This document shows, in pieces, positions 3,074 to 55,662 of a stretch of DNA of 64,000 bases (the stretch's first letter is position 1; each line of letters opens with the position of its first letter). A program made the position numbers and the translations under genes. The notes beneath the pieces were generated by a model, which had not been told where the DNA came from, did no database searches, and saw only the letters and a list, made by a program, of their open reading frames with translations. The DNA comes from Fibrobacter sp. UWH6 (GTDB lineage: Bacteria > Fibrobacterota > Fibrobacteria > Fibrobacterales > Fibrobacteraceae): positions 124,001 to 188,000 of the forward strand of contig NZ_FRAX01000006.1 in the NCBI RefSeq assembly GCF_900142465.1. The letters are read 5' to 3'.

Positions 3074-3160
3074 CAAAGTATGAATTATGAAGTACGAGAC
3101 TAAATAATCGCGGCCTTGCCGCCTTACTTGATCTAATAATTCATAATTCGTAAGGCTAGT
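3074..3160. repeat. Two-armed degenerate heptad repeat element
   Basis: The left arm (3074-3101) is four 7-base units: CAAAGTA, TGAATTA, TGAAGTA, CGAGACT. The right arm (3133-3160) is CTAATAA, TTCATAA, TTCGTAA, GGCTAGT. The right arm, read as its complement, resembles the left arm, so the element can fold into an imperfect hairpin around a 31-base centre that contains CGGCCTTGCCG. A second element of the same style begins at the next base. It lies between ddl and tsaB, both leftward genes. Confidence 0.7.
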
Positions 3161-3227
3161 GTAAAGCGGAAAGGATAAAGCGTAAAGAAGAATCTATATC
3201 CTTTAACCTTTAACCTTTAACCTTTAT
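3161..3227. repeat. Two-armed degenerate heptad repeat element
   Basis: The left arm has the units GTAAAGC, GGAAAGG, ATAAAGC and GTAAAGA (3161-3188). An 11-base centre follows. The right arm is CCTTTAA three times and then CCTTTAT (3200-3227). The right arm is roughly the complement of the left. It ends nine bases before the ddl stop codon. The left arm is almost the same as that of the element at 5455-5532. Confidence 0.8.
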
Positions 3228-3235
3228 TTATCCTC

Positions 3236-4270
3236 TTACCTCTTAATGTACAGGCTCTTTTCGATAATCATGTCGATGAGCTGGCTGTAGGTAATACCGT
3301 TGCAGGCGGCCTGCTGGGGCAAGAGGCTTGTGGGGGTCATGCCGGGCAGGGTGTTGGTTTCGATAGCGAACAGTTCACCGTCCTTGGTAATGCGGACGTC
3401 GGTACGGCTATAGCCTGCACCACCCAGAGCGTAGTGAGCGTTCTTCACCAGTTCCTGGATGCGTGCGGTCAGTTCCGGAGCAAATTCAGCCGGGGTCACT
3501 TCCTTACATTCGCCGTTGTACTTGGCTTCGTAGTCGAAGTATTCGCGGGTGGTCATGCGCATTTCGGTAGGCGGCAGGGGCTTTTCACCTTCGATGTAGC
3601 CGCAGCTAGCTTCGCCACCGGCAATGAACTTTTCGCAGAGGAGGCGGTTGGAATCCTTGAACAGGTCCTGGGCGATCTTGCCTGCTTCGTCAAGATCCTT
3701 GGCGATGCCGATACCGATGGAGGAGCCGCCCAGCGGGTCCTTGATGACCAGGGGGAAGCCCAGTTCGTCAGCAACACTTACCAGGGTGTCGCCAGTAAAG
3801 TCGTGCTTGAATATCACGCGGTAGGGCGGAGTGGGAATGCCGTTGGCGCGATAGATTTCCTTGGACTTGATCTTATCCATGGCCAGAGCGGAAGCCAAAA
3901 GACCGCAACCGGTGTAGGGGATACCCCAGTTTTCAAGAAGAGCCTGCACATGGCCGTCTTCGCCCCACTTGCCGTGGAGTGCCAGGAAGGCGATGTCGGC
4001 GTCGGGAAGTTCAGAAAGGGCGGGGTTCTTCTTGGTGTTGGCGGCAGTGCCTTCCAGACCGCGGAAGTAATTCACGGAGAAATTGTCCTTCTGGTAGGGG
4101 GACAGCTCGCGGGAAGACCAGTGCCAGGTGCCATCCTTGTCGATAAGAACCGGGTGGATGTTGTATTTGTCGGGATTCATGGCGCGGACCACACCGGTAC
4201 CGCTAACTACAGAAACATCATGTTCGGTGGACGGACCACCCATCAAAACGAGAACGCGCATGCGTGCCAT
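3236..4270 (-). CDS. ddl: D-alanine--D-alanine ligase
   Basis: A 344-residue ATP-grasp ligase that joins two D-Ala for peptidoglycan precursors in the cytoplasm. Visible motifs are the N-terminal LMGGPSTEHDVSVVSG loop, LHGKWGEDGHVQALLE, the ATP-binding KDPLGGSSIGIG glycine-rich loop, and the C-terminal EINTLPGMT-type block (here AIETNTLPGMTPTSLLPQQA) with metal ligands. Length is typical. The ATG at 4270 is preceded by AGAGG. It is transcribed leftward from a region that also holds a heptad element on its upstream side. Confidence 0.93.
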   Translation of the reverse strand: MARMRVLVLMGGPSTEHDVSVVSGTGVVRAMNPDKYNIHPVLIDKDGTWHWSSRELSPYQKDNFSVNYFRGLEGTAANTKKNPALSELPDADIAFLALHGKWGEDGHVQALLENWGIPYTGCGLLASALAMDKIKSKEIYRANGIPTPPYRVIFKHDFTGDTLVSVADELGFPLVIKDPLGGSSIGIGIAKDLDEAGKIAQDLFKDSNRLLCEKFIAGGEASCGYIEGEKPLPPTEMRMTTREYFDYEAKYNGECKEVTPAEFAPELTARIQELVKNAHYALGGAGYSRTDVRITKDGELFAIETNTLPGMTPTSLLPQQAACNGITYSQLIDMIIEKSLYIKR

Positions 4271-4318
4271 ATAAAACCTCTTGAAAATCTTACCTTGACA
4301 ATGTAGTAAATATACAGT

Positions 4319-4388
4319 GGTTAGTGGTTAGTGACCTGCATCCCGAAGCCCAAACCTCTAGGAGCGAAGCTCCGACCTCATACCTCAA
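4319..4388. repeat. Two-armed heptad repeat element with an inner hairpin
   Basis: The left arm has GGTTAGT twice and then GACCTGC (4319-4339). The right arm has ACCTCAT and ACCTCAA (4375-4388). Between them GGAGCGAAGCTCC can form a small hairpin. It sits in the divergent gap between ddl and the epimerase gene, well upstream of both start codons. Confidence 0.55.
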
Positions 4389-4498
4389 GCGAAGCGTTCC
4401 TCAAATGTCCCAATGTGTTTACGGGGGAAAACTTTTTTGCGTCCAGTTTTTTTGTTTCTGGGTTTTGCTATGTATATTTCTAAAAAAAGAGGTAAAAT

Positions 4499-5451: not shown

Positions 5452-5454
5452 AGC

Positions 5455-5532
5455 GTAAAGCGTTAATTAGCGTAAAGCGGAAAGGTTAAAGCGTAAAGGA
5501 ATATCTTTAATCTTTCTCCTTTCACCTATATC
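5455..5532. repeat. Two-armed degenerate heptad repeat element
   Basis: The left arm is GTAAAGC, GTTAATT, a three-base slip, then GTAAAGC, GGAAAGG, TTAAAGC, GTAAAGG (5455-5499). A five-base centre is followed by CTTTAAT, CTTTCTC, CTTTCAC and CTATATC (5505-5532). The second arm is roughly complementary to the first. It lies in the tail-to-tail gap, four bases from the end of purF. Confidence 0.8.
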
Positions 5533-8652: not shown

Positions 8653-8982
8653 ATGGCATTTTTCACGAAAAGCAAAATAGAAGACCTGAGAAGAGAGGCT
8701 GATCAGCTTTCGATTTGTATCGAACATTTTTTGTATGCTTCGGAAATCGTCCCCGAATGGGATTATAAGACTCGAGGCTTCTACGACAACTGTATCGAAA
8801 AATGTAATGGACGTCTTAAGGCCATCCACTTCATTATGGAATCCATTCGCAGGGGCCGCCCTGTGACGGAAGCGGAATTGGATGAAGCCCGCGAACGGGA
8901 AGATTCCGATGCGGGCCTGGCGGCCAAGAAACGTGTGGAAGAAAAGAAGAACTTGAAGAACGGAGTGGCCGATGAGAAATGA
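8653..8982 (+). CDS. Small charged protein upstream of rsgA, unknown function
   Basis: A 109-residue soluble protein beginning MAFFTKSKIEDLRREADQL. It is predicted to be mostly helical, with a highly charged coiled-coil-like C-terminus (EAREREDSDAGLAAKKRVEEKK). I do not recognise a family. The start at 8653 is used because an in-frame upstream ATG at 8605 lies within the preceding terminator. Its last 11 bases overlap the rsgA start, so translation of the two is probably coupled. This suggests a role linked to ribosome assembly or to rsgA expression, but that is inference only. Confidence 0.6.
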   Translation: MAFFTKSKIEDLRREADQLSICIEHFLYASEIVPEWDYKTRGFYDNCIEKCNGRLKAIHFIMESIRRGRPVTEAELDEAREREDSDAGLAAKKRVEEKKNLKNGVADEK

Positions 8983-10237
8983 CCTGGGTCGAAATGTCGA
9001 CTTTGATCAGGATTTCGATGCTGAAGAAGAACTGCCTCTCCGTTCTGTGCGTCCGACTCGCCGCGACCATCGCAGCCGTCGTATTGACGTGATGAAGGAA
9101 CTGGAAAGCGGTGTGGTGGATGAACGCCCCATTAAGGAACGCTACAGCCGCGAGTTCAAGAAAGCGAAAATCAAGAAGGTGAAAAATCCCATCGAGAATA
9201 TCGGTGAGGAAAATTGCGTAGAGGGCTTGGTTCTTGAAGTCCACCGCCGCACCTGCGAAGTGCGATTAGAGACGAAAAACGAGAAATTTGAGACGAAAGA
9301 CGAAAGTAGCTCAGAATCCCTTTCTCCTTTAAACTCTCCGCTTTCCGCTAATATAGTAACGGCCATGTACCGAGCCACTACATCCAAGACTTTGGGCGAA
9401 TTCCCTGCTGTGGGTGACCGCGTGCTTCTTGGGCAGGTAAATGACGCCGAAGATGAAGGCGATGGTGTCGGTTCCCAGAAGTATTGTGTGGTACGTGTCT
9501 TGCCCCGCAAGAGCGAACTGAAGCGCCCCGGTCCCCGTGATAGCTTTTACAAACAGCAGACCTTGGCTGCCAACATTGATCAGGTGGTCATTGTAGCCAG
9601 CGTAACCCAGCCGGAATTCAACTATGGTTTTATGGACCGCTTCCTGCTGGCAGCAAATTTGAATGACCTGCCTTTTGTGCTGGTTTTGACGAAGATGGAC
9701 CTGCTTCCCAATGGCGAGGCCGACCTTTCTGATGATATCCGCGACTTTATGTCTATTGCCGACAAGGTGATTCCCGTAAGCGTAAGGAGCGGTGAAGGTC
9801 TTGAGGTCCTTCGTGCGGAACTGGATGGAAAGTCTTCTGTTTTCAGTGGTCAGAGCGGGGTAGGTAAGTCCACCTTGATCAACGCCTTGGTTCCTGAAGC
9901 TGAACTTCAGACTGGTGCCGTCCGTGAACGTGATGGCAAGGGCCGCCATACTACAACGTCTTCTAGTCTGTTTGACCTTCCCCTGGAAGATTTCCCAAAG
10001 GGTGGTGTGGTCATCGATACTCCGGGTATCCGTTCCATTGGGCTTATGGATATGGAAGCTGAAACCCTGGCCAAAATTTTCCCGGGTTTCTTCGATGGAG
10101 ACCTGTTTACCTGCAAGTACAGCAACTGTATTCATGTCAAGGAACCGGGCTGCTCCGTGTTGGCTTCCGTTGAAAATGGATCCCTATCCCGCGCTCGTTA
10201 TGCAAGCTATCTCCGTATTTTGAATTCCAAGGATTGA
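8972..10237 (+). CDS. rsgA: Ribosome small-subunit-dependent GTPase RsgA, with repeat-derived insertion
   Basis: Circularly permuted GTPase that checks late 30S subunit maturation. The order is: a basic N-terminal extension (about 80 residues, longer than usual); an OB-fold (GLVLEVHRRTCEVRLE ... FPAVGDRVLL); the permuted G domain with G4 TKMD, G5 VSVRSGEG, P-loop GQSGVGKSTL and G3 DTPG; and a zinc-binding tail with the CKYSNCIHVKEPGC pattern. Residues about 100-128 interrupt the OB-fold between two strands. They are encoded by a heptad repeat element of the kind otherwise found between genes (9269-9354). The frame is kept, so the protein is probably functional. It overlaps the preceding small gene by 11 bases. 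Confidence 0.93.
   Translation: MRNDLGRNVDFDQDFDAEEELPLRSVRPTRRDHRSRRIDVMKELESGVVDERPIKERYSREFKKAKIKKVKNPIENIGEENCVEGLVLEVHRRTCEVRLETKNEKFETKDESSSESLSPLNSPLSANIVTAMYRATTSKTLGEFPAVGDRVLLGQVNDAEDEGDGVGSQKYCVVRVLPRKSELKRPGPRDSFYKQQTLAANIDQVVIVASVTQPEFNYGFMDRFLLAANLNDLPFVLVLTKMDLLPNGEADLSDDIRDFMSIADKVIPVSVRSGEGLEVLRAELDGKSSVFSGQSGVGKSTLINALVPEAELQTGAVRERDGKGRHTTTSSSLFDLPLEDFPKGGVVIDTPGIRSIGLMDMEAETLAKIFPGFFDGDLFTCKYSNCIHVKEPGCSVLASVENGSLSRARYASYLRILNSKD
9269..9354. repeat. Heptad repeat element inside the rsgA coding region
   Basis: The left arm (9269-9303) is GAGACGA, AAAACGA, GAAATTT, GAGACGA, AAGACGA. After a 16-base centre come CTTTCTC, CTTTAAA, CTCTCCG, CTTTCCG and CTAATAT (9320-9354). The second arm matches the style of the right arms at 3200-3227 and 5505-5532. 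The first arm is like the complement of the CTCGT array at 29971-30005. It encodes a Lys/Glu then Ser/Pro-rich loop. Confidence 0.85.
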
Positions 10238-11988: not shown

Positions 11989-12087
11989 TTAATTATGAAT
12001 TATCAATTACGAGATACAAATTAATAAGCAAGACGCCTCCGACGCGACAATACTAACTCATATCTACTACCAACTTCCTACTATCTA
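11989..12087. repeat. Two-armed degenerate heptad repeat element
   Basis: The left arm (11989-12023) is TTAATTA, TGAATTA, TCAATTA, CGAGATA, CAAATTA. The right arm (12053-12087) is CTAACTC, ATATCTA, CTACCAA, CTTCCTA, CTATCTA. The last unit runs into the A of the start codon of the pseudouridine synthase gene, so the element forms that gene's whole leader, with no recognisable ribosome-binding site. Confidence 0.75.
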
Positions 12088-29864: not shown

Positions 29865-29970
29865 TAGCCATTACCTGTAGGAAATTACCGTTGTATAACA
29901 TGAATGTTAGTTAAATCTAACTTACAGTACTGGTCCGACCTCAAAATCAGCGTTATTCGCCTGTTTTCAC

Positions 29971-30005
29971 TCTCGTCTCTCGTCTCTCGTTTCTCGTCTT
30001 TTTCT
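29971..30005. repeat. Heptad repeat, TCTCGTC units
   Basis: Units TCTCGTC, TCTCGTC, TCTCGTT, TCTCGTC and TTTTTCT, in exact 7-base phase, just before ribE. Only one arm is seen. It fills the ribE leader, so ribE has no obvious ribosome-binding site. Confidence 0.75.
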
Positions 30006-35860: not shown

Positions 35861-35888
35861 CTGTTGAAACTTGAAACTCGAAACTAGC
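35861..35888. repeat. Short heptad run (four units)
   Basis: CTGTTGA, AACTTGA, AACTCGA and AACTAGC are in exact 7-base phase. They fill almost the whole gap between the DUF2723 gene and the next glycosyltransferase gene. Confidence 0.7.
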
Positions 35889-53349: not shown

Positions 53350-55662
53350 CTAGCGCTTGATTTTTAAGCGGTCGCCTGCACGTACCTTGGTGTCGTTGAG
53401 GTTATTCCATTTGACGATATCTTCGATGGTAACCTTGTACTGGCGGGCGATGTCCCAAAGGCTTTCGCCTTTCTGAACTTCATGAATGCGGTCATCTTCT
53501 TCGGATGGCTGCATTTCTTTTTGGGGTGCCGCAGGAACCTTAAGCTTTTGTCCCACGTCGATAACCGTGTTGGCGCCCATGTCGTTGAGTTCCTGGATTC
53601 TTTGTACCGTGGTCGAGAACTTTCTGGAAATGGCGGTAAGGTTATCCCCAGGTCTGACTGTATAGACTGTCAGCTTTTCTGCGGAATTAGACTTTCGTTC
53701 GCTCTTGTATTCGGCGCTCTTGGCCTGCTTTGCCGGTTTGGAAGGCGTGTGCTTGAATTCGGGAATCACGATGGAATCGCCGACGGCAAGACGCTTCTTG
53801 AATCCGTTGTTGGCCTGCAGAAGCAAAAGCACGGGAACTTCGTAGGACTTGGCGATGGCGGCATAGGTGTCTCCCGACTTTGCCACGTACTTTTCACCCT
53901 TGGCCAGCTTCGGACGTTCAACAGGAGTGGTGGCAACTGCGGCGGTCGGTTTCAATTCGGGCTTCGAAACGAAAACAGTGTCGCCTGCATTTACGAAAGA
54001 GGCGGCGTCCATGGAATTCCAGGCGCGGAGGTTTTCCTGGGAGGTTCCGAACTTGCGGGCGATCGAGGCCAGATTGTCGCCGGGCTGGACCACGTAAGTG
54101 CGGACTTTTTCAGGCTTCTTTCTGGCAGAAGAGGCCGACTTGGGCTTCGGCGTAATCCTGATGGGAATGAGCAAGGACTGTCCCGCCCTGATGCGGGTGT
54201 TCTTCATGTCGTTGGCTTGCTGCAGTTCTGAAACCTTGATGCCGTACATCCTGGCGATAGAACCCAGATTCTCGCCTCGCTTAACCTTGTGGTGGTGCCA
54301 GCTGGAGAAGTTGTTTTTCTCCATCTTGTCATAGCCGTCAACGAAGGCCGCTCTTGTACCGACAGGCAGACGCAACAGGTAGGAGTCCTTGTTGGGGGGC
54401 GTGCACCATTTTACCAGTTCCATGTTAAGGCTGCGGAGGGTGTCTTCCTTGACCTTCAGAAGGTTTGCAACTTCTTCGAGAGGGAATGAATCGAAAACGG
54501 TTACCGTATCAAAGTCCGGCTGACGTTGCGGTTCCACAATCATATCGTACTGCTCGGGGAAGTGACCGACCACCATGGCTGCAAGAATACGGGGAACATA
54601 GCGCATGGTTTCCTTGGGAAGGTCCAACTCCCAGTAAGTGACGGCAAGGCTGGAATCTCTAGTGGAGTCTGCCTTCATTTCCTTGACCAGTCTGCGGACA
54701 CGGCCTTCACCGCAGTTGTAGGCGGCCATGGCCAACAGCCAGTCGCCGAATTCATCGTGCAGTCGCTTAAGATATTTGAGGGCCGCCTTTGTCGCCTTTT
54801 CCGGGTTGCGGCGCATATCTACCCAGTAGTCTACTTCAAGACCATAGCGCTTGCCGGTTTCGGGAATGAACTGCCACATGCCAGATGCCTTGGCGCGGCT
54901 GTAGGCTTTAACCTTGAATCCAGATTCCACCAGGGAAAGGTAGATCAAGTCCCGCGGCATTTGGGCTGCATCCAGCTGGGCGTAGATCAGGGAATCGTAG
55001 GCGGTCTTTCTGTTCAGGGAGCCGGACATGAAGGACCGGGCCTGGTTGGTCATGTAGTAGATTTCCTGCATGACGCGGTCGTTGAATTCCACCGGCAGGG
55101 AGAACTGTTTTAGGTCAACGGTATCCAAAAAACTTTCAATGACTTGCAGAGCGGCGCTGTCGGCCTGGTTTTCGTCAAGATCGTCAATGCCTTCAATTGA
55201 AACTTCGTTCCTTACGAAATTTTCGGCGCTTTCTCCCATTTCGGCAACGTTGGGGTACACTTCATCAAGTGCCGAGACGATGCGCTGTGGCATGGTGGCT
55301 CTATAGAGGGAGTCTTCCTGGAACGAAATATTCTTGTAGGTGGAATCGTACTTTTCAGAAACGAGCTGCCTAAGGGATTCGTCCAGGTAATGTCTTGCCA
55401 AAAGCCACTCCTGATTTTCCATAGCCTGCAATGCGTACTGGTAGTACGTCCATGATGGCCTCGAGGCGATAGCGTCGGAAACTTTTTCCTTGAGAGCCTG
55501 TTCCGTATAGGAATCATTCGTGGTATCTGCCGTCGTTTGCGGAGTCGGTTCCACTATAGGAGTTACCGGTGCGGGCTTAGAGGCGCAGCCTGTGAGGGTA
55601 AGGACTGCTAATGCAGAAAGTGTGCTTGCTAAAGAAATCTTATGGCGAAAAAATTTTTTCAT
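53350..55662 (-). CDS. mltD: MltD-like membrane-bound lytic transglycosylase with five LysM domains
   Basis: A 770-residue lipoprotein (LAVLTLTGCASKP) that cleaves peptidoglycan glycan strands. The catalytic SLT domain is at about residues 225-370: LIYLSLVESGFKVKAYSRAKASGMWQFIPETGKRYGL (Glu in the VESGF motif is catalytic) and AMAAYNCGEGRV. Five LysM repeats follow, each with a G-D/E-N/S-L pattern (VKRGENLGSIARMYG, VQPGDNLASIARKFG, AKSGDTYAAIAK, VRPGDNLTAISRKF, VQKGESLWDIARQY). E. coli MltD has two LysM, so five is many. A short coiled region precedes the SLT domain. It lies five bases after a small membrane protein gene. Confidence 0.92.
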   Translation of the reverse strand: MKKFFRHKISLASTLSALAVLTLTGCASKPAPVTPIVEPTPQTTADTTNDSYTEQALKEKVSDAIASRPSWTYYQYALQAMENQEWLLARHYLDESLRQLVSEKYDSTYKNISFQEDSLYRATMPQRIVSALDEVYPNVAEMGESAENFVRNEVSIEGIDDLDENQADSAALQVIESFLDTVDLKQFSLPVEFNDRVMQEIYYMTNQARSFMSGSLNRKTAYDSLIYAQLDAAQMPRDLIYLSLVESGFKVKAYSRAKASGMWQFIPETGKRYGLEVDYWVDMRRNPEKATKAALKYLKRLHDEFGDWLLAMAAYNCGEGRVRRLVKEMKADSTRDSSLAVTYWELDLPKETMRYVPRILAAMVVGHFPEQYDMIVEPQRQPDFDTVTVFDSFPLEEVANLLKVKEDTLRSLNMELVKWCTPPNKDSYLLRLPVGTRAAFVDGYDKMEKNNFSSWHHHKVKRGENLGSIARMYGIKVSELQQANDMKNTRIRAGQSLLIPIRITPKPKSASSARKKPEKVRTYVVQPGDNLASIARKFGTSQENLRAWNSMDAASFVNAGDTVFVSKPELKPTAAVATTPVERPKLAKGEKYVAKSGDTYAAIAKSYEVPVLLLLQANNGFKKRLAVGDSIVIPEFKHTPSKPAKQAKSAEYKSERKSNSAEKLTVYTVRPGDNLTAISRKFSTTVQRIQELNDMGANTVIDVGQKLKVPAAPQKEMQPSEEDDRIHEVQKGESLWDIARQYKVTIEDIVKWNNLNDTKVRAGDRLKIKR

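Follow-up and report, generated by a model that had tools for sequence, protein, structure and literature searches.

Probable in-frame capture of intergenic seven-base repeat elements in RsgA and other conserved proteins of Fibrobacter

Non-coding repeats are known to turn into protein chiefly in Rickettsia and in a few families of small repeats. Rickettsia palindromic elements (RPE) are short dispersed palindromes of 105-146 bp (PMC2229807) that lie between genes and in frame within conserved proteins; 19 such reading frames were reported, and the gmk product is active with its insert (Ogata 2000, reviewed in PMC2229807). Correia, ERIC and YPAL elements are likewise small non-coding palindromes that are read through in frame, and the 155-bp form of Correia, which has stops in all frames, stays between genes (PMC2229807). 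Heptanucleotide repeats (STRR), found in cyanobacteria and, as GGGAATC, in Xanthomonas, are enriched between genes and near start codons (PMC4692102). Finally, the tandem repeats of Borgs occur between and inside genes, giving disordered protein segments, and all unit lengths of those within open reading frames (ORFs) are divisible by three (PMC9879509). Our literature search found no paper on such repeats in Fibrobacter.

Here we describe dispersed repeats of Fibrobacter, starting from a 64-kb stretch of DNA (hereafter the window) in whose rsgA gene the initial annotation had placed an in-frame element of 7-base units. By analogy, RPE appear to be the closest known kind, although we do not file the repeats as RPE, given their heptad build, the multiple families in one loop and the absence of RPE homology data. 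As with RPE, the element was found both between genes and in frame in conserved ORFs: among 72 GAGACGA sites read, 50 were intergenic and 22 lay in ORFs that continued in frame on both sides (the sites were the first listed rather than a random draw, and the ORF calls were mechanical). Unlike RPE, the arms consist of 7-base units of varying sequence, several families occupy one loop, and inserts are common to diverged species; the heptad build, the multiple families in one loop and the identical inserts between diverged species are new. Tandem 7-base units dispersed mainly between genes recall STRR, but the STRR arrays use few unit sequences, whereas one Fibrobacter genome has many, in arrays that are two-armed and apparently captured in conserved proteins; with no constant unit sequence per family, the repeats were not filed as STRR. 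They resemble Borg repeats in being intergenic and genic and in giving disordered protein, and differ in their unit of 7. Unlike Correia, ERIC and YPAL, they are heptad-built, and neither a TA terminus nor a target-site duplication was found, the latter being sought by eye at complete copies and at filled and short rsgA sites, where the flanks have diverged.

The host gene of the window insert was identified as rsgA (Table 1). The fold of its product matched 7boi_W (2.1e-25) and 5no2_Z (9.3e-22), the best Foldseek hits were all RsgA/YjeQ, the best fold matches of the model were RsgA on the 30S subunit, and the sequence matches in the PDB were also RsgA. Residues 99-128 (LETKNEKFETKDESSSESLSPLNSPLSANI), flanked by the conserved motifs HRRTCEVR and VTAMYRATT, were absent or replaced in 74 orthologues. 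An AlphaFold model based on 36 sequences (mean pLDDT 68.9; 20 close sequences gave too weak a model, at 54.7) placed strands at 94-99 and 128-132 on either side of the insert and assigned residues 103-124 a pLDDT below 50, and the insert is accordingly predicted, in this model, to be disordered between two strands. Judged against E. coli RsgA, its site is what we take to be the β2-β3 turn of the OB-fold.

Table 1. Positions of rsgA, its insert and the intergenic heptad arrays within the window
Feature	Position	Strand	Basis
rsgA (ribosome small subunit biogenesis GTPase), which carries the insert	8972..10237	+	Pfam RsgA_GTPase 8.9e-53; fold matches
Insert of 30 codons (residues 99-128), predicted disordered loop, presumed β2-β3 turn of OB-fold	9266..9355	+	74 orthologues; AlphaFold
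Left arm, purine-rich, GAGACGA-type heptads	9269..9310	+	lag-7 0.66 over 9268-9306
Right arm, pyrimidine-rich, ending ...CTCTCCGCTTTCCGCTAATAT, member of dispersed family	9317..9354	+	31/38 bases in common with intergenic copy L351
Two-arm heptad element, TAAAGCG / CCTTTAA units, intergenic	3158..3240	no strand	lag-7
AGTGGTT heptad array, intergenic	4294..4403	no strand	lag-7
Two-arm heptad element, TTAGCGTAAAGCG..., intergenic	5452..5532	no strand	folds better than shuffles, z -3.0
AATTATG heptad array, intergenic	11989..12009	no strand	lag-7
CTCGTCT (GAGACGA on the other strand) heptad array, intergenic	29970..29999	no strand	
TTGAAAC heptad array, intergenic	35864..35885	no strand	

Read in register over positions 9269-9352, the insert resolves from left to right into GAGACGA, AAAACGA, GAAATTT, GAGACGA, AAGACGA, AAGTAGC, TCAGAAT, CCCTTTC, TCCTTTA, AACTCTC, CGCTTTC and CGCTAAT. 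Its self-match at lag 7 was 0.49 over 9269-9354, with all other lags from 3 to 15 at 0.16-0.39, and this value was never reached in 20,000 shuffles of bases or in 20,000 of codons. The initial annotation was thus correct in recognizing a 7-base-period element in frame in RsgA; of the ten heptads that it counted, the heptads hold and the exact number does not, as about 12 degenerate units fit. The two-arm layout it described is also present in the window copy, with a purine-rich arm followed by a pyrimidine-rich one: the GAGACGA-like left arm is strongly periodic (p about 3e-4), and the CTTTCCGC-like right arm is weakly so when taken alone (lag-7 0.42, p about 0.03). Six places in the 64 kb attained the lag-7 score of the insert over 86 bp, namely the intergenic arrays at 3117, 4294, 5441 and 11989, rsgA, and a marginal coding site at 54843; we dismissed the last as chance, since it is ordinary coding sequence right at the threshold. 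With respect to the terminal inverted repeats and stable stem-loop of RPE, nine complete Fibrobacter copies, several of them in rsgA loops, had the ends TTAGACGA...TCGTCTAA, and element copies from relatives folded better than their shuffles (z -4.1 to -5.0). In contrast, the window copy folded no better than its own shuffles (z 0.01), and a hairpin was rejected as its defining trait.

The right arm proved to belong to a family dispersed through the same genome, in agreement with the initial description of the insert as an intergenic-type repeat. A pattern for this family, whose members end in ...CTTTCCGCTTTACGCTAA, gave 31 matches in the genome versus 1 in the reversed control. Thirty matches were read, of which 27 were heptad elements, and rsgA was the only one of these 27 located inside a gene; the closest intergenic relative is the one listed in Table 1. 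Three of four matches called coding were rejected as one-mismatch chance matches without heptads. Furthermore, 464 kb of this genome contained 20 intergenic and 4 coding segments periodic at lag 7, with 0-1 intergenic segments at any other lag except 14. The arrays used many unit sequences (CCTTTAA, CACTAAC, CTCATAC, AATTATG, GAGACGA and others), which also varied within one array. Period 7 was common to all the intergenic arrays (3161-3226, 5452-5498 and L078-L097) despite the differences in unit from array to array. ORFs overlying heptad arrays at L079, L080, L081, L088 and L089 were edge, mis-started or opposite-strand frames and were not counted as captures. An Rfam search with four element loci returned no match. 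The element had been proposed to be mobile or copied: dispersed kin in the genome support copying, and mobility is only inferred, given that no target-site duplication was found.

RsgA was retrieved from 76 of 80 genomes of the genus, most of them metagenome-assembled genomes (MAGs), and 75 genes were read. The turn comprised 5-8 residues in 24 of the 75 and 11-54 unrelated residues in the remaining 51, with 63 distinct loop DNAs and the frame kept in every gene. Among the 47 loops that were 40 bp or longer, 30 were 7-periodic at p<0.01; the unit types in the loops were GAGACGA, CCTACTT-type, GAACTCC (TPNSELRTPN) and GGAACCT. Other genera had a short turn (LPNGDSV, LSDNRVV or LEKET), except for G110, which alone among the outgroup genomes read had a GAGACGA insert in this turn and which was also the one genome searched beyond the genus to contain exact GAGACGA pairs. 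A conserved loop in distant relatives would have refuted capture; because the loop is not conserved, with a range of 5 to 54 residues of unrelated sequence in the genus and a short turn in other genera, that refutation fails.

REP-like palindromes filled other loops of the genus, such as ATCCTTCGACT...AGTCGAAGGGCTCAGGATGACA in L066, and the loop of L018 and L019 (genomes G005 and G008) contained a member of a dispersed family of ~89 bp, other copies of which showed 98-99% identity, with a copy in TilS of the same genome at 96%. This REP-like element, with the core GATCATGCTCACATAAGTGCTAAAGCACTAAGTGATCAAAGAGCTC, was multicopy in the genomes of part of the genus; its in-frame hosts were RsgA, TilS and one more ORF, L238 (loci L018/L229, L230, L232, L234-L239, L241 and L242). 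In rsgA loops L009, L010, L011, L016, L021, L033 and L056, the bases AACG and CTACAG enclosed a nested GC hairpin (GGAGCTTCGCTCC, CCTGCTGCCGCAGG, CCCGCTGACGCGGG); it differs in sequence from copy to copy and stays palindromic, though coding.

Exact (GAGACGA)2 occurred in 59 of the 80 genomes, with a maximum of 123 in one, and the reversed pattern was found nowhere in these genomes. By the classification rule used for the copy-number comparison, 17 species carried GAGACGA in the rsgA loop, and GAGACGA was more frequent elsewhere in their genomes (median 17 versus 4.5 in species without such a loop, p 0.004, uncorrected for relatedness). The clade richest in GAGACGA, with up to 123 per genome, had the short turn LENDPS/YTV (L048, L049, L051, L052, L053, L074 and L075). 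Loop classes were scattered over the rsgA tree, which is a quick tree in which a crude label rule placed L006 and L020 in the GAGACGA class.

Because 7 equals 1 modulo 3, a tandem heptad gives one 7-residue repeat in every frame, and a single stop-free unit is therefore open in all frames. GAGACGA is stop-free on both strands (ETRDERR and SSLVSRL), and both readings occur in proteins. The initial annotation had drawn attention to a frame kept despite the non-triplet unit; it is indeed kept, but this is less remarkable than supposed, since a 7-base unit is frame-neutral. In a sample of 35 arrays from the window's genome that lay outside or at the edge of genes, 19 had units with stops on each strand and 2 had units free of stops on both, and the two genuine coding arrays, in rsgA and RluB, were composed of units without stops. 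On these small numbers, stop content by location fits a filter by reading frame.

Moreover, RsgA is not a lone case, as inserts of this kind occur in no fewer than 15 further protein families. Hosts identified by Pfam included Dus, ZnuA, an ABC ATPase, LigA, LysE, DegT, a glycosyltransferase, RsmG, RsmB, TilS, TopA, a DEAD/DEAH helicase, MnmE, an RlmKL-like methyltransferase and UvrB, and the window's own genome also has an insert in an RluB-like pseudouridine synthase. Random positions in the same loci as the GAGACGA sites were called coding in 68% of cases (depletion from genes, p 1.5e-10); genes are therefore avoided by these elements, though far from closed to them. Like that of RsgA, the loops of MnmE (L320-L348) and RluB (L289-L318) were hypervariable across the genus. 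The same kinds of element filled them in frame (DERTGGALQTRDE, CHPERNEVESKDL and SVILSGAKDPVPT).

We consider it highly probable that the rsgA segment represents the in-frame capture of an intergenic heptad element, because the insert is 7-periodic and its right arm belongs to a set of about 27 dispersed copies of which the others are intergenic, and because the turn is short in other genera except the one bearing GAGACGA and in-frame inserts occur in other proteins. In the proposed course of events, one of the dispersed two-arm elements of 7-base units in the genus would have been inserted, or copied, into the β2-β3 turn of the OB-fold, where it would survive as a disordered loop. Given that this turn, normally of 5-8 residues, is short and presumably exposed, many stop-free inserts with a length divisible by three could survive there; the 7-base unit may also help capture, in that an array would be readable whatever its landing frame and GAGACGA has no stops. 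Counted against capture are the lack of a significant hairpin in the window copy, the short turn of the clade richest in GAGACGA, and the fact that neither a target-site duplication nor any within-species polymorphism was seen. On balance, the evidence supports the overall reading of the initial annotation, an intergenic-type repeat copied into a tolerant turn, with the translation of the loop, the neutrality of its protein and the insertion event itself being inferred and no mechanism demonstrated.

Many inserts were more alike between species than the genes around them. Four pairs had identical insert tracts, of 62 (L001/L005), 85 (L003/L008), 90 (L030/L054) and 87 bases (L009/L016), with only 53-63% identity at rsgA third codon positions and longest identical runs elsewhere of 29-50 (53% and 29, respectively, for L001/L005). 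The insert DNA therefore spread between species after the genes had parted, almost without flanks, which points to loops having been exchanged between species as well as freshly inserted; the route may have been short-tract recombination or insertion at the level of the element. These tracts could suggest that rsgA received an element on one or a few occasions and that short-tract recombination then carried it from species to species, an account that we regard as possible and no more than tentative, since some of the identical tracts stop exactly at the insert edge and transfer alone accounts neither for the several unrelated families of element found at this site nor for the inserts that many other genes carry. 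It serves best as a complement to capture.

L001 and L005 differ in length by exactly three heptads (21 bp), from which we attribute some loop length change to local slippage. That the turn grew entirely in place, by replication slippage of 7-base units and without a captured element, would agree with this difference and with the free variation of loop lengths; it is nonetheless improbable, given that 38 bp of the right arm, its end included, match a dispersed intergenic family, that several loops contain complete two-ended elements, and that some contain REP-like palindromes rather than heptads. We hold it to be very unlikely that the loop was lengthened and selected to contact the 30S subunit or another partner: RsgA does act on the 30S subunit, as solved complexes attest, and a filled loop is kept in 51 of 75 species, but its residues and length are unshared, 24 species do without it, and the same sequences are present in unrelated enzymes. 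Chimeric or misassembled loops, conceivable since many records are metagenome bins, can hardly be entertained when all 75 loops keep the frame, loops also occur in several near-complete few-contig genomes, and the identical loop of the L029 group recurs under different study labels (RUG831, SRR12081294, SRR11784291 and SRR11784286).

Under in-frame capture, the explanation we favor, spacer DNA repeatedly became protein in RsgA and many other housekeeping proteins of Fibrobacter, with translation inferred. A single genus thereby offers 75 aligned natural cases at one loop, short and filled, supplemented by MnmE, RluB and more than a dozen further hosts. In these, loop tolerance, the frame filter (the modulo-3 property together with stop-free units) and how small repeats spread can be measured directly. 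The near-identical inserts in diverged species raise the question of how 60-90 bp moves almost flank-free. More speculatively, an active process in Fibrobacter may build 7-base arrays of variable unit and exchange or insert them between species at fixed sites, coding loops included, with the 7-base step easing capture and yielding a steady source of new protein segments. Intergenic GAGACGA arrays were also observed to end, in many cases, just upstream of a start codon (L190, L203, L216, L228 and others), where the array ends adjoin a -10-like CTATATTT or TAAATTTAGA and a promoter effect is possible.
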